Assembly: GCA_016742175.1 (NCBI GenBank)
Contig: JACVCH010000012.1
Span: 1-57,022 of the forward strand
Source: Rhizobiaceae bacterium
GTDB lineage: Bacteria; Pseudomonadota; Alphaproteobacteria; Rhizobiales; Rhizobiaceae
DNA: 57,022 bases
Reading direction: 5' to 3'
Shown here: positions 44,638-57,022 of the stretch, piece by piece
How positions within the stretch are numbered: position 1 is the stretch's first letter
Layout: every line of letters starts with the position of its first letter
The notes under the pieces: model-generated
Told to the model about the DNA's origin: nothing
Database searches by the model: none
Seen by the model: only the letters and a program-made list of their open reading frames with translations
Translations under genes and position numbers: made by a program

Positions 44638-44714
44638 GCGCCCGTAGCTCAGCTGGATAGAGCACCAGACTACGAATCTGGGGGTCAGAGGTTCGAATCC
44701 TTTCGGGCGCGCCA
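44638..44714 (+). tRNA. tRNA-Arg (anticodon ACG)
   Basis: A 77-base cloverleaf. The acceptor stem is GCGCCCG paired with CGGGCGC, with discriminator G and encoded CCA (44712-44714). The D arm contains AGCTGGATAGAGC, the anticodon arm is CAGACT-ACG-AATCTG and the T arm GGTTCGAATCC. The ACG anticodon reads CGN arginine codons. A T run follows the CCA. Accessory DNA begins directly downstream, so the 3' end of this gene is a candidate attachment site. Confidence 0.97.
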
Positions 44715-45058
44715 TTTTTTTCAATTTAATCAACCAGCTACATAAAGTCTCGTTTATTTGAGCGACGAGGAACTCACGAGTCACCACCGAGTCGCCACCG
44801 TGATCTCTCAACGTGTTTGAGAGAAGCGTCATGTCCGATGGACAAGCCAGTGACTTATCGACTCAGTGACCGCCTCGACGGCTACGGCGGCGTTCGGGCA
44901 CACGTTCGCGAATCTCTGGGCTAGGCGGCTTTGCGCCCCATGCACGAACCCGCTTCGCGGGAGGGGCGCCTTGGCTGAGATGGCGTAGTATTCGTAGCCT
45001 TTGAGCGGGTAGCGGCGGACGCCGACCATAGAGTTCCCTTCAACGAGAGGAACTCGCC
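44715..45058. other. Junction between tRNA-Arg and the IS91-type element
   Basis: No gene is supported here. The segment starts with a T run after the tRNA. It holds a short direct repeat (GAGTCACCACC / GAGTCGCCACC near 44779-44801), a palindrome TCTCTCAA-CGTGT-TTGAGAGA (44804-44824) and a small hairpin CCCGC-TTC-GCGGG (44949-44961). It should contain the left end of the IS91-type element, which I cannot place exactly, and possibly an island attachment site. Confidence 0.5.
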
Positions 45059-45964
45059 ATGGCTACCCCATCGACCGATGCACCCGTTTCGCCGCTTCGT
45101 CAGCGCATGCAGCACGACATGCTCATGCGGGGCCTCGGCTCCCACACGCGGCAGGACTACGTCCGTCACGTCCGGCGCTTCGCCGCGTTTATCGGCCGCT
45201 CGCCCGACACCGCGACGCCAGAGGATATCCGCCGCTTCCAGCTTGATCAGCATGAGAAGGGCGTCGGACCTGCGACCATCAACGGCACGGTCTCGGCGCT
45301 GCGGTTCCTGTTTCTGGTGACACTGCAGCGGCGGGATCTGTCGCGGGCACTGGTGATCACGCGCTATCGCCGCAAGCTGCCGGATGTGCTCAGCGTTGAG
45401 GAAGCGGGGCGGCTGCTCGAAGCTGCACCAGGCCTCAAGTACAAGGCCGCGCTCGGCGTCGCCTATGGCGCAGGCCTGCGCGTGTCCGAGGTCGCGCACC
45501 TCAAGGTCGATGACGTCGACTCGGGGCGCATGCTCCTCCGTGTCGAGCAGGGCAAGGGCCGCAAGGATCGCAACGCGATGCTCTCGCCGCAGCTCCTCGA
45601 ACTGCTGCGTCTGTGGTGGCGCGAAGGCAGGCGACGCGGGGTCATGCTTCCGCATGGCTGGCTGTTCCCGGGCCGCGGCCGCACCGATCCGATCTCGTCG
45701 CGGCAACTGCATCGCGCGGTCCAGGAGGCCGCCGAAGTCGCTGGCATCCGCAAGCGCGTCAGCCCGCACACGCTGCGTCACAGCTTCGCCACTCACCTGC
45801 TCGAACAGGACGTCGACATCCGCGTCATCCAGGTGCTGCTCGGCCACAGCAAGCTTGAGACGACCGCGCTCTACGCCAAGGTCTCGACCCGGACGATCCA
45901 TGCTGTCACCGGGCCGCTCGACCGCCTGATGGCGCTGATGGAGGGCAAGACGCCGCCCGGCTGA
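45059..45964 (+). CDS. Tyrosine recombinase of IS91-type element
   Basis: A 301-residue tyrosine recombinase. It has an N-terminal SAM-like DNA-binding domain (residues about 8-90, LRQRMQHDMLMRGLGSHTR) and a catalytic domain with the Arg in YGAGLRVSEVAHLK. The HxxR box is HTLRHSFATHLLE, and LGHSKLETTALYAKV contains the nucleophilic Tyr. All catalytic residues appear present. GAGAGGAA precedes the ATG. The transposase gene starts 3 bases after its stop, so it is part of the IS91-type element and not a dedicated island integrase. Confidence 0.92.
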   Translation: MATPSTDAPVSPLRQRMQHDMLMRGLGSHTRQDYVRHVRRFAAFIGRSPDTATPEDIRRFQLDQHEKGVGPATINGTVSALRFLFLVTLQRRDLSRALVITRYRRKLPDVLSVEEAGRLLEAAPGLKYKAALGVAYGAGLRVSEVAHLKVDDVDSGRMLLRVEQGKGRKDRNAMLSPQLLELLRLWWREGRRRGVMLPHGWLFPGRGRTDPISSRQLHRAVQEAAEVAGIRKRVSPHTLRHSFATHLLEQDVDIRVIQVLLGHSKLETTALYAKVSTRTIHAVTGPLDRLMALMEGKTPPG

Positions 45965-45967
45965 GCC

Positions 45968-47161
45968 GTGCGCGCCTCGGTCGAGGTCGCCGACATCTTC
46001 CGCGCAGCAGGGCCTGCCTACCGGGCCGCCCATGCCGGGCACCTAAGCCTCGCCCAGCTCAAGGTCATGTCGGCGATCGAGAACTGCCGCACCGCGGCTC
46101 TCGGCGGTCACGTCGAGGCCTGCGAGGACTGCGGCCAGTGGCGCATCGCCTACAACTCCTGCCGCAACCGGCACTGCCCGAAGTGCCAGGGCGCGGCGGC
46201 GTGGACGTGGCTTGCCGAGCGCGAGGCCGACCTGCTGCCGGTCGGCTACTTCCACGTCGTGTTCACGCTGCCAGCCGAGGTCGCCGACATCGCGCTCCAG
46301 AACAAGGCGCTCGTCTACGACCTGCTGTTCAAGACGGCGTCGGAGACGATGCTGACGATTGCCGCCGATCCGAAGCATCTCGGCGCGCGCATCGGCATCA
46401 CCGCCGTGCTCCACACCTGGGGATCGGCGATGATCCACCATCCGCACGTGCACATGATCGTGCCGGGCGGCGGCATCGCGCCCGATGGAAGTCGATGGAT
46501 CTCCTCGCGGCCGGCATTCCTGCTTCCGGTGCGCGTGCTTGGCAAGCTGTTCCGACGGCTCTTCCTCACGCGGCTGCTCGCTCTGCGCGACGCCGGGCAA
46601 CTCGGCTTCTTCGGGACCATGGCGCACCTCACCGAGCGACGCGCCTTCCTGCGCCACCTTGCTCGTGTCCGGACAAAGCGTTGGGTGGTTTACGCCAAAG
46701 CGCCGTTCGCCGGACCGGAGGCTGTGCTCGCCTACCTGTCGCGCTACACCCACCGGGTCGCGATCTCGAACCGCCGCCTCATCGCGTTCGATGATCGCGG
46801 CGTCACCTTCCGCTACAAGGATTACCGTCGTGACGGCGAGGACCGGCAGCAGGTGATGACGCTAGCGGTCGATGAGTTCATCCGCCGCTTCCTGATCCAT
46901 GTCCTGCCGCGCGGCTTCCATCGCATCCGGCACTACGGTCTGCTCGCCGGCTCCGCCCGCAAGGCCAGCCTCGCGCTCGCCCGCGAACTCCTGGATGTCG
47001 CCACGCCGCCCGATGTCGACACACCAGTCGAACCGGACGACCACCGCCCGCCATGCCCCTGCTGCGGCGGGCGCATGACCATCATCGAGACGCTTGAGCG
47101 CTGGAGGCAACCGCGCGGACCGCCGCGCGCATCGGCGACGAACCGGGAGACCGACGCGTGA
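45968..47161 (+). CDS. IS91-family transposase
   Basis: A 397-residue rolling-circle (HUH-type) transposase. The N-terminal zinc-binding domain has CEDCGQWRIAYNSCRNRHCP and the following Cys; the metal-binding HUH motif is in IHHPHVHMIVPGGG; the catalytic Tyr is in YLSRYTHRVAISN. A C-terminal zinc pair (PCPCCGGRM) is present. The GTG start at 45968 follows the recombinase stop closely. The frame is intact, so the element may be active. Confidence 0.93.
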   Translation: MRASVEVADIFRAAGPAYRAAHAGHLSLAQLKVMSAIENCRTAALGGHVEACEDCGQWRIAYNSCRNRHCPKCQGAAAWTWLAEREADLLPVGYFHVVFTLPAEVADIALQNKALVYDLLFKTASETMLTIAADPKHLGARIGITAVLHTWGSAMIHHPHVHMIVPGGGIAPDGSRWISSRPAFLLPVRVLGKLFRRLFLTRLLALRDAGQLGFFGTMAHLTERRAFLRHLARVRTKRWVVYAKAPFAGPEAVLAYLSRYTHRVAISNRRLIAFDDRGVTFRYKDYRRDGEDRQQVMTLAVDEFIRRFLIHVLPRGFHRIRHYGLLAGSARKASLALARELLDVATPPDVDTPVEPDDHRPPCPCCGGRMTIIETLERWRQPRGPPRASATNRETDA

Positions 47162-47758: not shown

Positions 47759-49000
47759 TTACGCTGATGGTGTCGTCAGGGCCGCCCCTTCTATGACAAC
47801 TCCAGCGTTCACGTATTTCCACAGCGCGACAAGCAGTTTACGGGCAAGCGCGACGATCGCCGTCTTCTTATACCGGCCACCATTCTGGGTGACTCGCGCC
47901 CTGAACCACTGACTGAGCGCGGAATTGGGTTGATGGCGCACCCAGAGCCACGCAACCTGGACAAGTGTCGATCGGAGCCTGGGGTTGCCGGACTTCGAGA
48001 CCCCCTGCTCGCAATTTACCTGCCCACTTTGCCAAGGCGTTGGCACCAAACCAGCGTAGGCGGCAACCTGTCGTCGATTGTCAAACTTGCGCGATAATCC
48101 CTCAGACCACAGGACGGCGGCAAATTCCGGACCGATGCCCTTGAGGTTGAGCAGGAGGGCCGGTGTTGGTACATCTGCCGCGACGAGCATGGCGTCGCGT
48201 GCCTCTTCAACATCCTTGATCTGCTGGATCAGCAACTCGAGGCGATCAAGTTCGCGGCTGATCTGCGCCTTGAGCGCTGGCGGCAATGGCCGTCCATCTC
48301 CGGTGACAAGAGCGTCGAGACATTTGCGTCGATCGCCCTTCAACGGTTCGTATCCGGACACACCTTGGCTGAACAAAAGGCCCTTTATCCTGTTGACGTG
48401 CCTGATCCGCTCGTTCGTCAGCGCCTTCCGCTCCCGCACCAACCGGCGGCGGTCTTCCTCCTCCGGCGTTGGCACTCGCAACATCGCGCAAACCCGAGGC
48501 TCGCCGCGGTTGTAGGCCAACAACGCTCGAACCAGTGCTTCCCCATCTATCCTGTCGGTCTTGGCCCGCCGACGGCGACGCGATGTGGCAATGGATGCCG
48601 GGTCAACGACATAACTCTCGATGCCTTCGCGTTCGAGGACCCGATGAATCCAGAATCCATCCAGACCAGCTTCCTGAATTGATATGACGCGGAAGCTCCG
48701 CCCTGTCCGCACTTCCGCCTTTCGTTGCAGTTCCGCGACGTGATCGAGCAAACCCGGAATGTCGCCCCCTAACACGGTGTGTCTCGACATCCTCTCGCCC
48801 CCACCAGGCGAAAGCGAGGTCACAAGCCATTTCGAACGAGACAGTTCTAATGAGACAAATATTGCGGCAAGATCGACGCGGATAGCGGCCGGTGCTTTGG
48901 TGCTGTTGGCGTGCATGCTGACCTCCAGGTGATGTTTGGCGACCTTACTCTGGCAGAGCGTTGGTCGCTTTCCATCCCCATAGGATCTTCACCATGCCGG
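47500..49000 (-). mobile_element. IS110-family insertion element
   Basis: One intact DEDD transposase gene (47759-48916, minus strand) with non-coding flanks of roughly 250 bases at its 3' side and 80 or more at its 5' side. IS110 elements lack clear terminal repeats, so ends are estimates. The longer non-coding part after the transposase suggests the IS1111-like layout. It lies between the IS91-type element and the dpd-like operon. Confidence 0.6.
47759..48916 (-). CDS. IS110-family transposase
   Basis: A 385-residue transposase of the IS110 family. The N-terminal RuvC-like domain supplies the DEDD residues (for example VDLAAIFVSLELSRSKW, ISIQEAGLDGFW and KTDRIDGEALVRALLAY). The C-terminal Transposase_20 domain has LKGIGPEFAAVLWSEG, YAGLVPTPWQSG and the conserved Ser in GVSKSGNPRLRSTLVQVAW. 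GGAGG precedes the ATG. The gene is complete. Members use a bridge RNA transcribed from the element's own non-coding end to choose target and donor sites. Confidence 0.93.
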   Translation of the reverse strand: MHANSTKAPAAIRVDLAAIFVSLELSRSKWLVTSLSPGGGERMSRHTVLGGDIPGLLDHVAELQRKAEVRTGRSFRVISIQEAGLDGFWIHRVLEREGIESYVVDPASIATSRRRRRAKTDRIDGEALVRALLAYNRGEPRVCAMLRVPTPEEEDRRRLVRERKALTNERIRHVNRIKGLLFSQGVSGYEPLKGDRRKCLDALVTGDGRPLPPALKAQISRELDRLELLIQQIKDVEEARDAMLVAADVPTPALLLNLKGIGPEFAAVLWSEGLSRKFDNRRQVAAYAGLVPTPWQSGQVNCEQGVSKSGNPRLRSTLVQVAWLWVRHQPNSALSQWFRARVTQNGGRYKKTAIVALARKLLVALWKYVNAGVVIEGAALTTPSA

Positions 49001-49207: not shown

Positions 49208-52200
49208 GTGTTTGTTAAAGCGACCGGGGGCCATTGTGCGACTCTAGGAATTGGAAAGCAAATCGGCCATCATGAAGCGTTCTGTATGGTCGAATATTTT
49301 GATTCTCCTACTTCCGAAAGCGTGGTTTACAATATTGACCGAAAGTTTATAGAGCGCATTAGTATTGCTAAACAAACTCGCGTCTATTGCTTCGATTCAA
49401 AAAACGCGAAGTGGGAAATTGGCCACTTACTGGACGATAGTGGCGATAGCCAACTAATCCAGTTCGCCGAGAACAGAACAAGACGCTTGAGTTGTGATTC
49501 GGTGTTCGTCAGATGCAGTCTCCCAATCGGGGATCCTACATCATTTCTAGCCAATTTGATAACCGAAAGCCCTCGATTTTCAACCGGGCGAAGCGCTTTC
49601 GTACGCTCTCAAACGTACCAACGCGCAGCGTCGAAGGGTATGTCTGCACTGCTTGCATGCGCTGTGGAACTCGAACCGCATCAGGTTGAGATTGTGCGAC
49701 GCATCTTACAAGATCCGGTGCAGCGTTACCTGCTCGCCGACGAAGTAGGGCTCGGAAAGACAATCGAAGCCGGCGTCCTCATCCGTCAATGCGTCCTCGA
49801 TATGGGACCGGGCTGTACGGTTCTAGTGACCGTCCCTGCGCCGCTGGTAAACCAGTGGCGCACAGAGCTTTCCGACAAGTTCTTTCTTGGACATCACCTC
49901 AATCGCAGCGTTCATGTGATTTCACATGACGACGATGAACACATTCGAGCGATCCTGCCGAAGGCGACGATGCTCGTCATCGATGAGGCGCACCACTTGA
50001 TCGATCTCGGTATCGCAAATGCAACTGGTGTGTACCAAGACATCGCCGCCGTTGCACAAGAAATTGAGCGAGTCCTTTTGTTGTCGGCAACACCTGCGCT
50101 GCATAACGAGCGCGGATTTTTGAGGATGCTCCATCTCCTCGATCCGCTGACATATCCGCTCGATGGCGAGGATTCGTTCCGACGCAAGGTGGAGAGCCGA
50201 CAGGAGGTGGCAGAAATCATCGCCGGCTTAACATCGGAAAATGTGTTGTTTCTCGATCATGTGCTTGATCAATTGCGCCAGCTTTTTCCACGAGACGAAA
50301 TACTTCAGGAACACGTTGCGAAACTCGCTGACATTGTAGACACGATGCCTGACGGTAGCGACCCAGTTCTGAATAGGGCGATCGACGAATTGCATGCCCA
50401 TCTGAGCGAAGTTTACAGACTGCACCGGCGCATCTTGCGTCATCGTCGTCGGACCCTTGGTGCACTCGTTCCAGGTAGATCAGGGGCCGAAGTCGTGCAT
50501 TACCGCAGCAGCGATCGGGCAGCCCTTAGCGATGCAATGGCAAATTGGCAGTTTCGGGAGGCGACAAAGATCGACGAAGCCGGCGAAGCCCTCTGGGCGG
50601 ATCGCGCGAAAACCTTTTGGCGCGTGCTTGATCGCGGATCGCAATATCCGAGTTCCGGGGCCGGAATAGTTAGTCTTCTGGCGCAGCGACCCGGCAAGAT
50701 TAGTGATACAGCACGGTTCGATGCGGTCCGCCAGTGTCTGGGTCGCTCCGGTCTATTCGAAGATCGCGCCGACGCGCTCATCAAGGCGCTTGAGCCGTTA
50801 GTGAGTACGGACACGAAATGCATCGTGTTTTGTTCCGATACCAAGTCTGCCGATCGTCTAGCAAAGAGGATCGCTGACCGACTGGGTATAAAGGTCGACC
50901 GCCATGATCCCGGCAGCGACCGTTGGACGGCCTTTAATGACGACATCAACCGACTCGTTCTTGTTTGCGATCGACGGGCGGAAGAGGGCCTCAATCTCCA
51001 AGGCGGCAAGAAGACTGTGGTCCACTACGACGTTCCGTTCAATCCGAATCGAATCGAACAACGTTTAGGCCGTGCCGATCGCTACGGATCTGAACACGCC
51101 GTGCGCTCTGTCGTGCTCGCTTGCGAGGACGATCCGTTTGAGATGGCTTGGATCGACTATCTCGATTCGGCGCTTAGAGTATTCGACCGATCCGTGGCGA
51201 GCCTTCAATACTTGTTAGAAAACACTATGCGAAACCTAGCGCTTCCTCTGTTGATCGAAGGCCCAGAAGGGATCACTGAACTCACGGCGAAGAGCAAAGG
51301 AGAGCATGGGGAGATCGAGCGAGAAATCTCGGCGATTGATCAGCAGGATGGCCTCGACGCCCTCGGCACCCCCCCGGAAACTCTCTTCGACGATCTTTCC
51401 GCAGTCGAGGAGAACTGGCTCACGATAGCAGGAGATACAAATACGTGGGTTGAACACACGCTGCAATTTGAGCGTCTGGAGGAGCCGCGCCTCGCCCCGA
51501 GCATTGGTGAAGCGACGCCCTTCCGATATACTTACTCCACCGTTCCTCGGCGCCATACGCTCATTCCGCTCCAAACTTTTTTGGCACATAGCGACGCTGT
51601 CAGTGGCCCCGCTCGGAGTCATCCGCGAGAAAACACGACGATCAGAACTATGCCCTACACGTATCGCCGGCGAACCGCGCTGCATCCGCGTGCGCGCGCC
51701 AATGGTGTGGGGTTGCTTCGCTATGGCGATGACCTAATCGGCGGAATCTCGGCTTTCACAGAGTCGGATGATCGCGGCCGATGTTTTGCCATGTGGCGTT
51801 TCGCCCCCGATTACTCTGGTGACCCTGTTGCGGACATCTACTTTCGGTTCGACTTCGTTATTGAAACCGACATCAACGCTGCTGCCTGCGTACTGGTGGA
51901 TCATGATCGCGACACGCGCGCCGCGCGAGCTGCGGTGCGTCGACGTGGCGATATGGCGCTCGCGCCTTTCTACCGATCCATTTGGCTCGACCGGGAGCTT
52001 ACGCGCGTGCGTGACGCATCGCTGCTTTCGCGTCTAGAGCGCCCTTATTCAGTCGAACCGGATCGCAGCGGATCGTTTGATCTCGACCTTGATGCGCGGC
52101 GGTGGCGGCGGTTGTTTGCACTGCAGGTTCCCGAGTTGTCATATTGGTCTGAGCTTTGCCATAAAGCGCGTACGAAAGCCGAGGATACGCTGAGGACTGA

Positions 52201-52456
52201 GCCAGATTTAATCGTCAGTCTTGCGCATGCCGAGGAACGCGCTGCCCGCATTGATCGCGGACATATTGGCCAATTACGCGCGCGTGCCTGCGCCGATGCT
52301 ACTGTTCTGAAAGACGACGAACTAGTTTTCGAGGGGCTACTTGCTGCGGCCTTACGAAGTGGCATACGTGTCCCTCAGGTCCGGCTCGATACGATTGGTG
52401 TAGTCTTCGTCTCCGATAGTTCTGCCGCGACCGATCGAATTTCGGGTGGCACCTAG
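49208..52456 (+). CDS. dpdE: SNF2-type helicase, DpdE-like (7-deazapurine DNA modification system)
   Basis: A 1082-residue superfamily 2 helicase of the SNF2/RapA type. Residues 1-150 form a small N-terminal domain (GIGKQIG, MVEYFDSP, QTRVYCFD). Helicase motifs follow: I LLADEVGLGKTIEAGV (about 175-190), Ia VTVPAPLVNQWRTEL, II VIDEAHHLID (about 258-267), III LLLSATPALHNERG, V DRRAEEGLNLQGG and VI NRIEQRLGRADRYG (about 613-626). The C-terminal 400 residues match nothing I know. Size, N-terminal style and the three genes that follow fit DpdE. GTG 49208 is the likely start; base composition at the start is AT-richer than the chromosome. Its stop overlaps the next start by one base (TAGTG). Confidence 0.78.
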   Translation: MFVKATGGHCATLGIGKQIGHHEAFCMVEYFDSPTSESVVYNIDRKFIERISIAKQTRVYCFDSKNAKWEIGHLLDDSGDSQLIQFAENRTRRLSCDSVFVRCSLPIGDPTSFLANLITESPRFSTGRSAFVRSQTYQRAASKGMSALLACAVELEPHQVEIVRRILQDPVQRYLLADEVGLGKTIEAGVLIRQCVLDMGPGCTVLVTVPAPLVNQWRTELSDKFFLGHHLNRSVHVISHDDDEHIRAILPKATMLVIDEAHHLIDLGIANATGVYQDIAAVAQEIERVLLLSATPALHNERGFLRMLHLLDPLTYPLDGEDSFRRKVESRQEVAEIIAGLTSENVLFLDHVLDQLRQLFPRDEILQEHVAKLADIVDTMPDGSDPVLNRAIDELHAHLSEVYRLHRRILRHRRRTLGALVPGRSGAEVVHYRSSDRAALSDAMANWQFREATKIDEAGEALWADRAKTFWRVLDRGSQYPSSGAGIVSLLAQRPGKISDTARFDAVRQCLGRSGLFEDRADALIKALEPLVSTDTKCIVFCSDTKSADRLAKRIADRLGIKVDRHDPGSDRWTAFNDDINRLVLVCDRRAEEGLNLQGGKKTVVHYDVPFNPNRIEQRLGRADRYGSEHAVRSVVLACEDDPFEMAWIDYLDSALRVFDRSVASLQYLLENTMRNLALPLLIEGPEGITELTAKSKGEHGEIEREISAIDQQDGLDALGTPPETLFDDLSAVEENWLTIAGDTNTWVEHTLQFERLEEPRLAPSIGEATPFRYTYSTVPRRHTLIPLQTFLAHSDAVSGPARSHPRENTTIRTMPYTYRRRTALHPRARANGVGLLRYGDDLIGGISAFTESDDRGRCFAMWRFAPDYSGDPVADIYFRFDFVIETDINAAACVLVDHDRDTRAARAAVRRRGDMALAPFYRSIWLDRELTRVRDASLLSRLERPYSVEPDRSGSFDLDLDARRWRRLFALQVPELSYWSELCHKARTKAEDTLRTEPDLIVSLAHAEERAARIDRGHIGQLRARACADATVLKDDELVFEGLLAAALRSGIRVPQVRLDTIGVVFVSDSSAATDRISGGT

Positions 52457-55041
52457 TGGCGGAGCTTGACTTCGGCAGTTTGCAAGATGTCCTGCTGGAC
52501 CTCAAAAAGCTGGAATGCCAGTTTTCCATGTCGGACGGCGTGTTTGACAGACTTGCGCAGATTCTGCGCGCGTCGCAGGGGGCCAGTCGGCTCCAGAGCC
52601 CGCAGGATGCGATGGCGCTCTTTAGGCACGTGCTGCGGCGGCAGTCGCTACGCTCCGGCCAACAAGCCCAACTGCGAGTCCCTTCGGGCGCCGGTTGGCC
52701 AGACCGCACGGAGTGGGCCGGTTGTGGTATCCGCGCCCATAGCGAAGCGAACGGCCATTTCCTTATCGAAGCTCGACCGTGGCGCGCTGATTGGCTTGAA
52801 GAAAGCGACAATCCCGTCTTTGAGGATATCTTCGCGGAGCGGAACGTCCGGCTCGACTGGCAACGACCGATCGATCCATTTCTCGGCGAGGCGAGCGGCT
52901 TCGACAGTTATGTGTCGCCCGGTCAGCGCGAGGCCGTGCGGAGCGCCTTCTTGTTGCCGGCCGGAGAGACACTCGTCATTTCCTTGCCGACCGGGTCAGG
53001 CAAAAGCTTCGTTGCCCAGGCCCCCGTGCTCGCTCGTGGTTTGGAAGGCGGTCTATCGCTTTGTGTCGTGCCCACGACCGCGCTGGGGCTTGATCAGGCG
53101 CGGCAGATGCTTCAGATGCTCAAGCGCCGCTTTCCACGCCGAGAGGTGCCCGCGCTTGCGTGGCACGCGGGCCTCGGCGCGGCAGATCGCGCCGGAATCA
53201 AGGCCGCGATCCGCGAGGGTCGCCAAGGCATTCTTTACTGTTCGCCGGAGGCCGTGACGGGCGCGCTTCTGCCCTCGCTCTACGATGCGGCGCGCGCTGG
53301 CCTGCTTTCTTACCTCATCGTCGATGAGGCTCATCTGGTCAGCCAGTGGGGCGACGGTTTTCGTCCTGCCTTTCAAATGCTTGCTGGCGTGCGGCGCGGG
53401 TTGCTGGATGCTTGTCCCGACGCTCGCCGCTTCAGGACGCTGCTGATGTCGGCGACCCTGACGCCCGACACGTTGCAAACGATCGACGCGCTGTTCGGCC
53501 CGGCGCGCACTGTACAAATGGTCGCCTCGGTCCATCTTCGGCCAGAGCCGCAGTATTGGGTGCACCGCGAGGACGATCCAGAGGAGAAGGATCGGAAGGT
53601 TCTTGAACTGCTGAGACACGCGCCGCGACCCTTCATTCTTTACGTGACGAAGCGAAACGATGCAAAACGATGGGCGAGACTGCTACGTGGCAAGGGCTAT
53701 GCGCGGATCGATTGCTTTCATGGCGAGACAGCAGATGCCGACCGTCGTCGCATCATAGACCAATGGTCCGAAAACCGCCTCGATGGGATCGTCGCTACGT
53801 CTGCCTTCGGAGTGGGTATCGACAAGCGCGACGTTCGCACCGTCATCCACGCTGCCGTGCCCGAGACGCTCGATCGCTTCTACCAGGAGGTGGGACGCGG
53901 CGGACGCGATGGCTCTCCCTCGGCTTCATTCTTGATCTACTCGCGCGAAGACCAAGAGACCGCCAACCAAATTGCGTCGCCGTCCCTGATCAGCGACGAC
54001 CTTGCGTTTGAGCGGTGGTCGACAATGTACGGTCACAGCACGCAACTGGACACGATCGGGCAGTTGCTCGAGGTGGATCTGGCGGTGGTTCCCCCACGGC
54101 TTCGGCGACAGTCGGACTACAATCAATCCTGGAACATGCGCACGCTGATCATGATGGCTCGAGCCGGCATGCTCGGATTGGAATCACAACCGCCAGCCCG
54201 CATTGCCCAGCAGGAGGAAGAGAGCGGAGCAGCCTTCGAACTTCGCAGCGAAGAGCATTGGTCGGAATATTTTCAGCGGACCGTCGTGGGCATGTCTGAG
54301 TTGGGGCATCTGAGTCGCGAACGGTTCGACGCGCGGATCGGTCAGGAACGGCAGCGTTCGTTCGATGCTGCGACCGAAAATCGTGAAATGCTCGCCAGAC
54401 TGCTGAGCGGGTCGACCGAAATTTCGTTGCTGCTGGACCTGCTCTATCGCAGCAACGCGCCGGGGCGCTCGGTAATTGTGTCGCGCGCGTGCGGCGGATG
54501 CCCGGCCCATCGGCGCGAGGGAACGGTCAATACCGATTATTCGGCGCCTCCCGCCTACGGGATCGAGCAGGTCGGCCATTTCGACCTCAGTTTGTTCGTC
54601 GATCGTTTCCCGCAGCTTGATTTGAGCGAGCCGATCATCATGCCCATCGACGACCCGACCGATGATGTTTCGCTTGTAGGCCTGCTACGCGATTTTGTCG
54701 CGATGTTCGGCGTTCGGGAGATCGCTACCTCCGCCACGTTCCGTCAGCAAAATCCCGCGTTGTCGAGCCTTCACAAGCAGAGCAGCGAACATGTACTGCT
54801 TCTGCAGATGCTCGAAGAGGAAGCAATTCGTCCCTCGTCCTATGAACTCCCGCGTGTCACGGTTTGGACTGGTCCGCCCGCTACGACCCTGCCAAAGCAC
54901 CTGTTCACCATCAACCGCCCGCTGCATGTAATCATGGCGCCGGCCTCGACGCCGGACCCCTGGAACTACGCGCGCCGCATCGCCGACACCGGTTCCAATG
55001 TGCTAGCGGTCGATCAATTCAAGATCGGAGCACGCCTGTGA
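52456..55041 (+). CDS. dpdF: RecQ-like DNA helicase, DpdF-like
   Basis: An 861-residue superfamily 2 helicase. After about 150 N-terminal residues come motif I SLPTGSGKSFVAQ (about residue 175), motif II with the RecQ hallmark VDEAHLVSQWGDGFRPAF (about 288), motif III LLMSATLTPDT, motif V VATSAFGVGIDKRDV and motif VI RFYQEVGRGGRDG (about 472). The C-terminal 380 residues lack a clear RecQ HRDC domain but have a short Cys cluster, SRACGGCPAH. DpdF of the Dpd system is described as a RecQ-family helicase of this size. GTG 52456 overlaps the upstream stop; translation is probably coupled. It overlaps the next gene by 4 bases (GTGA). Confidence 0.78.
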   Translation: MAELDFGSLQDVLLDLKKLECQFSMSDGVFDRLAQILRASQGASRLQSPQDAMALFRHVLRRQSLRSGQQAQLRVPSGAGWPDRTEWAGCGIRAHSEANGHFLIEARPWRADWLEESDNPVFEDIFAERNVRLDWQRPIDPFLGEASGFDSYVSPGQREAVRSAFLLPAGETLVISLPTGSGKSFVAQAPVLARGLEGGLSLCVVPTTALGLDQARQMLQMLKRRFPRREVPALAWHAGLGAADRAGIKAAIREGRQGILYCSPEAVTGALLPSLYDAARAGLLSYLIVDEAHLVSQWGDGFRPAFQMLAGVRRGLLDACPDARRFRTLLMSATLTPDTLQTIDALFGPARTVQMVASVHLRPEPQYWVHREDDPEEKDRKVLELLRHAPRPFILYVTKRNDAKRWARLLRGKGYARIDCFHGETADADRRRIIDQWSENRLDGIVATSAFGVGIDKRDVRTVIHAAVPETLDRFYQEVGRGGRDGSPSASFLIYSREDQETANQIASPSLISDDLAFERWSTMYGHSTQLDTIGQLLEVDLAVVPPRLRRQSDYNQSWNMRTLIMMARAGMLGLESQPPARIAQQEEESGAAFELRSEEHWSEYFQRTVVGMSELGHLSRERFDARIGQERQRSFDAATENREMLARLLSGSTEISLLLDLLYRSNAPGRSVIVSRACGGCPAHRREGTVNTDYSAPPAYGIEQVGHFDLSLFVDRFPQLDLSEPIIMPIDDPTDDVSLVGLLRDFVAMFGVREIATSATFRQQNPALSSLHKQSSEHVLLLQMLEEEAIRPSSYELPRVTVWTGPPATTLPKHLFTINRPLHVIMAPASTPDPWNYARRIADTGSNVLAVDQFKIGARL

Positions 55042-55940
55042 GTATCCTCAACCAAGCCAGTGACGGGCTGTTCAACGTGCTGATCGTGTTGGTTCGCGCA
55101 CTTGTCCGTTTCGGTCCAAAGGGTCGCGAGGATCTGATCCTCGCATGCGGCGGCGCGATCGACGCCTTCGACACCAGTCAGTTGACTAGAACCCTGAATC
55201 GCTGGACCGAACTTGGTCTTTTCGACGAGGAAGGCGGGTCCGTCGTCATCACCGAACCCTACCGTTCTGCGCTCGGCAAGAGCGCCGACGAAGCCGAAGC
55301 ACGCCTGCCGAAGGTGGCTCGGACAGTGGTATTGCAGCCGACGAACAACACGCGTTTCTGGGAAAGCGAGGGTGCCAAGAGCGCGGACCTGTCGCGCGGC
55401 GTGGCGTGGATGCTCGCTCAGGACGTCTATGCGCTAGACGTCAATTCCGACCGACTGGCTGAGCTTGAAGGGCGCCAGTTGATTGACAGCGGAACGCAGA
55501 AGATCGCCCAGAACAATACGCGCTGGAATGGCCTTAAGACGTGGATGCTGTATCTCGGGTTCGCGCGCGATGGCATGCAGTGGGCAGTCGATCCCACGCA
55601 GGCGCTGCGCGAGGCACTTCCAGACATTTACGGGTCGTACCGCGAATTATCCGCGCCTGCGTTCGTAGAGCGTGCAGCCTCGGTTCTTCCGGTCCTCGAC
55701 GGGGGCGCCTACCGGATTCAGGTTGAGGGCGCCTTAAAGGAAAGCGTTTGGCCCCGCCGCCGTGCCGGCATCGCCTCATCGTCACTGTCGCGAGCAATCC
55801 AGCGTCTCGATCGTGAGGGCTTTGTCACAATTTCGAACAGGAGCGACACTGAAGGCGTCGTGTCGCTCACCGGCAGCAATGCGCGAACCTGGCGGGATGT
55901 ATCGCATGTGGCCCTGGTCCAAGCAGGAAAGGCGCGCTAA
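55038..55940 (+). CDS. dpdG: DpdG-like protein
   Basis: A 300-residue protein with no catalytic motif that I can see. The N-terminal 75 residues (GLFNVLIVLVRALVRFGPKG, LTRTLNRWTELGLFDEEGG) and the C-terminal region (SSLSRAIQRLDREGFVTISN) both look like winged helix-turn-helix folds, suggesting DNA or protein binding. By order and length it corresponds to DpdG, a protein of unknown function found between DpdF and DpdH. GTG 55038 overlaps the upstream stop by four bases and its own TAA overlaps the next ATG by one (TAATG). Confidence 0.72.
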   Translation: MSILNQASDGLFNVLIVLVRALVRFGPKGREDLILACGGAIDAFDTSQLTRTLNRWTELGLFDEEGGSVVITEPYRSALGKSADEAEARLPKVARTVVLQPTNNTRFWESEGAKSADLSRGVAWMLAQDVYALDVNSDRLAELEGRQLIDSGTQKIAQNNTRWNGLKTWMLYLGFARDGMQWAVDPTQALREALPDIYGSYRELSAPAFVERAASVLPVLDGGAYRIQVEGALKESVWPRRRAGIASSSLSRAIQRLDREGFVTISNRSDTEGVVSLTGSNARTWRDVSHVALVQAGKAR

Positions 55941-57022
55941 TGCTCGAGAGATATTGGCCGGAAGCGGATGAGGTCAACGCGTGCATCAAGAACGAAGCCG
56001 AGACGGCGGACGTATCAGTGCTGCTGGCGGTTCATCAACCCACTCCGCTCTCGACGCGAAATGCCGGCACAAATATTGAGACTGCGGCATCCGAGCAGGA
56101 GTTGCTCGATGCCTTTCTTTCCGACGACGTGCCGGGCGGATATCTGCTTTTTCCGATCACCGGCCCTTCCGGCGTGGGCAAGTCGCACATCATCCGTTGG
56201 CTCGACGCGCAGCTTCAGCGTTTGCCCCAGCGCGAACGTCTTCACATCATCCGTATTCCCAAAAGCGCAAGTCTCCGACGCGTCGTCGAACTTATCTTGG
56301 AGCCCCTAGAAGGCGACATACGGTTCGAAAAACCGCGTTCGGAACTTTCGCGCGCAGTCGCGGAAGTCGACAAGCGCAAGGCCGTAGTGCTGTTCCGCGC
56401 GCAGATCGAGAATGCGTTGGCGAGCCGCGAGGAAGCTCTGCTGCTGGAGATTCGTGAACATTCGGATCGGGCGGCAGAGTTGAGGCCGCTGCTTGGCCAT
56501 GCTCGGATGCTGCCGAAGCTATTCGGCGACGCGGCGCTGAAGGACCATTTTGACGAGACCGTCCTCGCCCGGGTGATCGCACGCGCCCTCCGTGGCCGGG
56601 ACGACGATGCTGAAGGTGACGAGACCCAATCGCAGTTCTTTGCTGAGGATCTGCTCCTTCCCGACACGGTAAATCTCAACGAAGCGGCGCTACCGGTAAA
56701 GACCTATTATCAGACCCAACTTGCGGTCCAGGACACCCGCCGCCGCCAAGGCGCGGCCGACCTTCTTAACACGATAGTCGATGCGGCGATCGGCAACGTC
56801 TTTCAACTCGAGCAGAGCACTGGCGGCATTACCTTGCAGGACATCATCCTCGGGATCCGCGAGATCCTGCTGAAGGATGATATGGACCTGATCCTCCTCG
56901 TCGAGGACTTCGCCGCGCTGTCGGGCATTCAAGACGTGCTGCTCAAGGTCTGCGTGCAGGAGGGCACTCATGACGGCAAGAAGGTGCGCGCCACGATGCG
57001 CACGGCGCTCGCGCTCACCGAC
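55940..57022 (+). CDS. dpdH: P-loop ATPase, DpdH-like (3' end cut by window edge)
   Basis: At least 361 residues of a large P-loop ATPase, cut by the right edge of the window. The N-terminal 60 residues (MLERYWPEADEV) are unclassified. Walker A is ITGPSGVGKSHIIRWLDA (about residues 73-90) and a Walker B-like LILLVEDFAALSG follows near residue 316, as in STAND/AAA-type ATPases. By order after DpdG it matches DpdH, a protein near 1000 residues. AGGAAAGG lies upstream of the ATG. The rest of this gene, and any dpdA-D, I-K genes, must be to the right of the window. Confidence 0.75.
   Translation, partial: MLERYWPEADEVNACIKNEAETADVSVLLAVHQPTPLSTRNAGTNIETAASEQELLDAFLSDDVPGGYLLFPITGPSGVGKSHIIRWLDAQLQRLPQRERLHIIRIPKSASLRRVVELILEPLEGDIRFEKPRSELSRAVAEVDKRKAVVLFRAQIENALASREEALLLEIREHSDRAAELRPLLGHARMLPKLFGDAALKDHFDETVLARVIARALRGRDDDAEGDETQSQFFAEDLLLPDTVNLNEAALPVKTYYQTQLAVQDTRRRQGAADLLNTIVDAAIGNVFQLEQSTGGITLQDIILGIREILLKDDMDLILLVEDFAALSGIQDVLLKVCVQEGTHDGKKVRATMRTALALTD

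Follow-up and report, generated by a model that had tools for sequence, protein, structure and literature searches.

A complete Dpd island in a Rhizobiaceae genome whose restriction and modification arms appear to come from different parent islands

The Dpd system for 7-deazaguanine modification of DNA was reportedly first described in 2016. Enterobacterial Dpd systems, among them that of S. Montevideo, carry the DpdA, B, D, E, F, G, H, J and K families. According to the available text of PMC12707154, among other sources, DpdA together with DpdB puts preQ0 (7-cyano-7-deazaguanine) into DNA and DpdC converts this preQ0 to ADG (7-amido-7-deazaguanine); the same text reports that genes associated with the ADG cluster lowered transformation. 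Here we describe a locus with all of these families in a Rhizobiaceae bacterium. The window, the 57,022-base stretch that was analysed, is bases 1-57022 of contig C22 (JACVCH010000012.1; 112,554 bases of a 4.3-Mb genome), so that window and C22 numbering are the same. We read the locus, with a probability of about 0.87, as a complete, horizontally acquired Dpd modification-restriction island with arms from two parents, working as proposed below. Taken by itself, the island is an unremarkable, complete representative of a known system; the points of interest are its hybrid origin and a conserved pair of DpdB proteins.

The island and its two DpdB proteins

An initial annotation of the window had described four coupled genes in the order dpdE-F-G-H, the first three encoding 1082, 861 and 300 residues. 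The open reading frames (ORFs) bear out the order, places and sizes. Successive frames touch or overlap, and dpdH is cut by the window edge, with codons 1-361 of 1037 inside (55940-57022; PADLOC E = 4.2e-70 for that portion). The dpdG ORF as listed is longer; its start is a GTG overlapping the stop of dpdF. Profile searches with PADLOC and NCBIfam agreed with the proposed names:

49208-52456, + strand: dpdE, SNF2-type helicase, 1082 amino acids (aa); PADLOC DpdE E = 3e-248; NCBIfam NF041062 940 bits, cut-off 500
52456-55041, + strand: dpdF, RecQ-like helicase, 861 aa; PADLOC 2.4e-217; NF041063 936 bits, cut-off 550
55038-55940, + strand: dpdG, 300 aa; PADLOC 1.1e-56; NF041064 309 bits, cut-off 80
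55940-59053, + strand: dpdH, P-loop ATPase, 1037 aa; PADLOC 7e-136 (whole); NF041065 842 bits, cut-off 450

Given these PADLOC E values and NCBIfam equivalog scores above cut-off, the four matches are not attributable to chance. The helicase and P-loop motifs are present: GLGKT, DEAH, SAT and QRLGRADR in DpdE, GSGKS, DEAH, QWG (the RecQ hallmark), SAT and QEVGRGGR in DpdF, and the P-loop GPSGVGKS in DpdH. DpdG had been called winged-helix-like; its Pfam matches are helix-turn-helix hints below cut-off (E 0.003-0.009), which neither show nor refute this, and a sequence search for a solved structural relative of DpdG returned none.

The cluster had been taken as partial, with its modification genes past the right edge. 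Those genes (dpdC, dpdB twice, dpdA, queE, queD and queC) were found there, and by homology and gene order the island is complete, with 16 genes at C22 49208-73944. The + strand carries dpdE-F-G-H-I-J-K-D, and convergent to it the - strand carries dpdC-dpdB1-dpdA-dpdB2-queE-queD-queC and a VUT transporter gene. The 12 genes from dpdI onward lie beyond the window (C22 59050-73944):

C22 59050-59784, + strand: dpdI; PADLOC 1.6e-6; NCBIfam 118 bits, under the cut-off of 150
C22 59729-64324, + strand: dpdJ; PADLOC E = 0, 1627 bits
C22 64321-64860, + strand: dpdK; PADLOC 1.5e-47; NCBIfam 195 bits, cut-off 100; Pfam PLDc_2
C22 64857-67130, + strand: dpdD; PADLOC 1.3e-72; NCBIfam 619.5 bits, cut-off 300
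C22 67206-67778, - strand: VUT-family gene; Pfam Vut_1 4.3e-10
C22 67765-68484, - strand: queC; Pfam QueC 1.2e-68
C22 68481-68855, - strand: queD; Pfam PTPS 2.5e-28
C22 68855-69487, - strand: queE; Pfam Radical_SAM 5.5e-8
C22 69490-70578, - strand: dpdB2; PADLOC 8.7e-118; NCBIfam 377 bits, cut-off 300
C22 70575-71864, - strand: dpdA; PADLOC 2.3e-153; PDB 7ui4 1.1e-87
C22 71864-73003, - strand: dpdB1; PADLOC 8.7e-130; NCBIfam 444 bits, cut-off 300
C22 73000-73944, - strand: dpdC; PADLOC 9.9e-78; recognised by Pfam too

The starts of dpdJ, dpdK, dpdD, dpdA, queE, queC and the VUT gene are uncertain or were picked by eye. The NCBIfam comparison covered both DpdB and DpdC, D, E, F, G, H, I and K; cut-offs were passed by DpdE, F, G, H, K, D and both DpdB, and DpdJ was assigned by PADLOC alone. 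DpdA has the stretches DCGAF, GGTV and CxCxxC, and its solved relative 7UI4 is the S. Montevideo DpdA, according to the part of PMC12137116 available to us. Two suspected defects were discarded. Overlapping ORFs had raised the suspicion of a broken queC, and one of them encodes a full QueC and the other the VUT transporter; dpdK seemed to be missing from the initial ORF list, and its ORF overlaps the end of dpdJ.

The set of genes for preQ0 supply is present in the genome. The genes sought to the right of position 57022 (dpdA, B, C, D, queC, queD and queE) are in the island, except for folE, which is on contig C5. FolE, QueF, QueA and a full-length tRNA-type tRNA-guanine transglycosylase are encoded on contigs other than C22, and contig C32 encodes a second Vut_1 protein. 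The island QueC is the only full-length QueC match of the genome, the other three matches ending by position 73 of 210. Queuosine in tRNA may thus draw its preQ0 either from the island or from salvage; with the genome 96.1% complete, a housekeeping queC may have been missed.

DpdB1 and DpdB2, encoded on either side of dpdA, share 35% identity. We compared them with 25 other islands, comprising 12 loci of named genomes found with DpdA (in a scan that picks up close relatives only), a second DpdA locus in one of those genomes and 12 plasmid islands (H1-H12); matches on cyanobacterial, Paenibacillus and haloarchaeal plasmids (rows H13-H33) are outside the counts. The initial annotation placed the host among the alphaproteobacteria; the taxa of the 12 DpdA-found loci are alphaproteobacterial, but the island is mobile. 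The order dpdC-dpdB-dpdA-dpdB recurs in 22 of the 25. The Enterobacter island has a single DpdB, and no DpdB match was found in the Acetobacter and M. extorquens AM1 islands. In a quick tree of 49 DpdB-like rows, first and second copies formed two clades of 23 rows each, with 98 and 100 support in the Shimodaira-Hasegawa-like approximate likelihood ratio test (SH-aLRT); the Enterobacter DpdB and two distant extra copies fell outside both, where the tree program flags long branches.

It might be argued that the two proteins are redundant copies doing one job. Both score above the DpdB cut-off, and DGQQR is found in 45 of the 46 clade rows (47 of all 49), the clade exception being a fragment of a frame-broken gene. 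We consider this unlikely. The copies form separate clades, each of the 23 islands with one clade has the other too (one second copy is frame-broken), and among 24 aligned sequences, 12 per copy, 66 columns are invariant and another 16 hold one residue in all first copies and a different one in all second copies. The literature searched, which did not include key Dpd papers, contains no description of such a pair flanking DpdA, and we make no claim of priority. The conserved pair gives a specific, testable claim on a protein of poorly understood role.

More distant relatives were also seen. DpdB1 homologues with 27-30% identity occurred in 5 of 385 genomes of a class sample, besides the host's own. 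DpdB1 and DpdB2 queries found no match at 1e-4 in H13, H14 and H17, though a DGQHR or DndB gene is annotated in H13 and in H14. Dpd-like loci of another kind lie on cyanobacterial plasmids (L051 9077-17594; L052 1074-9403), each cluster having two annotated transglycosylase genes and two DEAD/DEAH helicases.

Different nearest relatives of the two arms

The two arms of the island resemble different relatives. In the modification arm, DpdB1, DpdA, DpdB2 and DpdC are 90, 82, 91 and 63% identical to those of Devosia CJK and 89, 81, 88 and 62% to those of Mesorhizobium norvegicum, but only 55, 51-53, 52-53 and 35-37% to those of Agrobacterium vitis and Shinella, against which QueC, at 69-70%, is the most conserved protein of this arm. 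The restriction arm is closest to A. vitis and Shinella (DpdF 85-86, G 86-89, H 85-86, I 83-84, J 88-89, K 93 and D 79-80%), as compared to 43-78% for Devosia and 28-41% for M. norvegicum, the latter without a DpdI match. We built trees from all eight available islands with a canonical restriction arm, using DpdB1, DpdA, DpdB2 and QueC for the modification arm and DpdF, G, H, J, K and D for the restriction arm. The first tree grouped the window's island with Devosia (support 100/99) and the second grouped it with A. vitis and Shinella (100/100). In the approximately unbiased (AU) test, forcing window, A. vitis and Shinella together was rejected for the modification arm (p-AU 0.0025), and for the restriction arm window with Devosia (2e-11), window with M. 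norvegicum (8e-7) and window with Devosia and both Mesorhizobium (4e-125) were rejected; as such, these values carry less weight because the identities were already known when the tested groups were chosen.

The change can also be followed in the nucleotide sequence. Positions 53088-67105 match Shinella at 82.3% (14,038 aligned positions) and 67218-73911 match Devosia at 75.6% (6,702 aligned positions). Matches to the opposite partner on each side are weaker and scattered (about 65-71%, with 75% in one short piece). Because the Shinella match ends at 67105 and the Devosia match starts at 67218, the nearest relative changes within about 113 bp, a gap that holds the stop codons of dpdD and the VUT gene, where the two arms meet with their 3' ends. 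On these sequence comparisons, the restriction and modification arms appear to have been joined from different parent islands.

An explanation without recombination between the arms would be that they evolved at unequal rates, or that an old pair of islands underwent differential loss. Rates do differ, since A. vitis and Shinella share 74-78% in DpdB1, DpdA and DpdB2 and 87-95% in the restriction arm; co-resident islands exist, as two DpdA loci in one Mesorhizobium metagenome-assembled genome (MAG) indicate; and the choice of the tested groups leaves some room for it. Unequal rates, however, leave the conflict between topologies with its rejected opposing groupings, as well as the switch of nearest relative within 113 bp, and loss after co-residence is itself a kind of reassortment. 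We regard this explanation as improbable beside a joining of two parents.

DpdE stands apart from the rest of its arm, with only 63-64% identity to A. vitis and Shinella as compared to 79-93% for DpdF to DpdD. A mosaic dpdE with a swapped specificity segment was considered and ruled out, as identity per 60-residue stretch ran from 43 to 87% with no long block at the 85-90% of DpdF to DpdD. Comparison of the identities only suggests that dpdE was exchanged as a whole, separately from the other genes.

Arm types vary across the islands with two DpdB. Of these 23 (22 plus that of the window), the canonical E-D arm occurs in 8 and an arm of dpdF-G-H-I with a long DpdJ in another 8; 6 show no restriction arm in the flanks examined (about 8-30 kb, on the sides seen) and 1 is at a contig end. 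The long protein matches the PADLOC long DpdJ model, which makes the second arm an already known variant. Mapped onto the tree of the modification arm, these three states need no fewer than 7 changes across 22 labelled islands; for just the two arm types, across 16 islands, the minimum is 4. The restriction arm lies downstream of queC/VUT in both orientations, and upstream of dpdC in Azospirillum brasilense. A protein for which neither PADLOC nor Pfam has a family (762 aa; L025 38612-40897) accompanies the long-DpdJ arm in 8 of 8 islands. In Shinella the dpdF gene is split, with its matching parts about 2.2 kb apart (L032 6549-11457). The Mesorhizobium MAG has a two-arm island and also a second modification arm with a frame-broken dpdB2 (L037 6237-12964), beside which no restriction genes were found in the stretch examined.

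The two-parent hybrid points to a restriction arm that recognises the mark and its sequence context rather than a protein partner of its own. It stands next to a modification arm whose DpdA and DpdB are only about half identical to those of its closest relatives, which suggests communication through the mark. A wider reading, which we put forward tentatively and which may well be wrong, is that a Dpd system consists of a marking half and a cutting half, each of them swapped as a unit. The 3' end of the conserved dpdC-dpdB1-dpdA-dpdB2-que operon would be the socket, taking in either direction a canonical E-D arm or one of the F-G-H-long-J type, with none seen in some islands; the cutting half would recognise nothing but the base, within a sequence context that is shared, and would ignore partner proteins, and DpdB1 and DpdB2 would form a heteromeric loader that sets the position of the base. 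Natural hybrid islands are ready-made swap experiments, and the hybrid nature of this one offers a handle on how Dpd restriction distinguishes self from non-self.

The island-bearing element and its neighbourhood

The island lies in an element that begins at a tRNA gene:

44638-44714, + strand: tRNA-Arg(ACG), left attachment site of the island-bearing element; same-genus homology stops at its end
44670-44718 (+) and C22 106260-106308: left and right copies of a 49-bp exact direct repeat of the tRNA end, 61.6 kb apart
C22 104721-106133: open frame for a tyrosine integrase that has an Arm domain, close to the right repeat on its inner side

Nucleotide homology to all four same-genus genomes ends at 44716-44717. 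A gene for a VapE-like protein lies further inward from the integrase, and a third copy of the repeat (35 bp, exact) is at C22 112385-112419. In 20-kb stretches of the same-genus genomes, no further C22 match longer than 120 bp was found that would mark where the empty site continues on the right, and the right boundary is accordingly placed by the repeats only. DpdA was found in none of the four sampled same-genus genomes; the other 56 relatives gave two weak partial matches (30-31% identity) and otherwise none at 0.001. Horizontal acquisition is the best explanation for the tRNA site, the 49-bp repeats, the integrase and the absence of DpdA from these four genomes, as judged from sequence. 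A Dpd locus at a tRNA hotspot has a precedent in leuX of Enterobacteriaceae, as stated in the available text of PMC12707154.

Other genes of the element and its surroundings were recorded. Between tRNA-Arg and dpdE are a tyrosine recombinase and then an IS91-type Y2 transposase (window 45059-47161), followed by an insertion sequence (IS) transposase gene of the IS110 family on the - strand (47759-48916), 291 bp upstream of the dpdE start, which may affect dpdE expression. From dpdC to the VapE-like gene (C22 75948-95248; L004, L005), the proteins scanned include metabolic cargo, namely an FAD-binding oxidoreductase, a TctA transporter, an aldehyde dehydrogenase, a dehydrogenase and a thiamine pyrophosphate enzyme. 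Between the second and third repeats (C22 106308-112385; L081) are genes for an AIPR protein, which we take to belong to an abortive-infection family, an integrase and an IS1595 transposase; this may be a second, short element of a tandem array.

Proposed function and comparison with known systems

The gene content, order and homology of the island, the differing nearest relatives of its arms, its left boundary and the right repeats are observations made here; the modification chemistry of DpdA-C and the restriction are inferred from the family. PreQ0 would be made by QueD, QueE and QueC together with FolE, which is encoded outside the island, and may also be imported by the VUT protein. DpdA, helped by DpdB1 and DpdB2, would swap guanine for preQ0 in DNA, and DpdC would turn this preQ0 into ADG. 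Helicases DpdE, F and J, ATPase DpdH and DpdG, I and D might form a surveillance machine that finds DNA without the modified base and hands it to DpdK, of the phospholipase D (PLD) type, for cutting; which protein senses, and DpdK as the cutter, are guesses. The arms carrying these functions would derive from two parents, with the junction in the gap where their 3' ends converge. The initial annotation had called the locus a defence module of undescribed biochemistry, which holds for the biochemistry; the gene families already have names in NCBI and PADLOC.

Several points weigh against this reading. DpdI is under its NCBIfam cut-off (118 vs 150 bits), and DpdC has no NCBIfam match at 1e-3. 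The PLD motif, HxKx4D, includes an aspartate, which was not seen at its place in the island DpdK (HIKGVLLK), nor in A. vitis, Shinella, Devosia and Enterobacter, and among eight relatives compared it is in place in M. norvegicum and Pararoseomonas. This island is known from its sequence alone, and in the available text of PMC12707154 the restriction activity and its mechanism were not further explored.

The island could also be decayed or silent, with modification only or nothing at work. The IS110 transposase gene upstream of dpdE, the 6 of 23 two-DpdB islands without a restriction arm in the flanks examined, the interrupted Shinella dpdF and the frame-broken Mesorhizobium dpdB2 would fit such decay. 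All 16 reading frames of this island are open and the searched helicase motifs are intact, and we think decay improbable as compared to a working modification-restriction island.

That another helicase-rich defence system (DISARM, BREX, Druantia or BRIGADE) merely resembles Dpd here is hardly credible and is in essence refuted by the gene content. To our knowledge, DISARM and Druantia have no DpdA-type transglycosylase, and here dpdA, 13.6-14.8 kb to the right of the window edge, is accompanied by dpdB, dpdC and queCDE. A lack of tgt-like and preQ0 genes over 30 kb downstream, together with better matches to other defence families, was what the initial annotation had named as its refutation, and neither is the case. 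DpdE also matches DrmD (121 bits) and BrxH (117 bits), and DpdJ matches SngC (73 bits), DruE (70) and DrmA (47), but the Dpd models are ahead by hundreds of bits (825 for DpdE, 1627 for DpdJ), which rules out DISARM, BREX and Druantia; the NCBIfam DrmD model gives DpdE 147 bits against its cut-off of 610, so DrmD is not the best match. The available text of PMC12458937 describes YprA helicases as common to DISARM, Dpd and Druantia, PLD nucleases as accompanying DISARM and Dpd, and BRIGADE as exclusive to halophilic archaea, usually with two YprA helicases and a 7-deazaguanine cluster. One YprA-type protein, best-matching DpdJ, was found among the 16 island genes scanned, and the definition of BRIGADE does not apply.

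Within Dpd, Enterobacter plasmid pPOL9A shares the order E-F-G-H-(unnamed)-J-K-D. The island differs from it and from other enterobacterial Dpd in its two DpdB (pPOL9A has one), in having queE-queD-queC and VUT in the modification operon and in its weak DpdI. The plasmid-type Dpd of Caulobacter sp. S6 (DpdF, G, H and long DpdJ) has the same kind of modification arm and matches to the DpdF and DpdH models, and its 2102-aa protein is the long DpdJ of model PDLC02895; unlike the island, it has no DpdE, D or K match and carries in addition the 762-aa protein described above. A. vitis pUnnamed2 and Shinella zoogloeoides p1_Teo12 have, like the island, convergent arms, two DpdB and a restriction arm 79-93% identical in DpdF to DpdD (63-64% in DpdE), but their DpdA, DpdB1 and DpdB2 are only 51-55% identical, and about 7.5 kb separate the two arms in A. 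vitis. Devosia sp. CJK-A8-3 has E-F-G-H-I-J-K-D with a restriction arm of 43-78% identity running in the same direction as its modification arm, the arm in which it comes closest to the island, with DpdB1, DpdA and DpdB2 at 90, 82 and 91% and DpdC at 63%.

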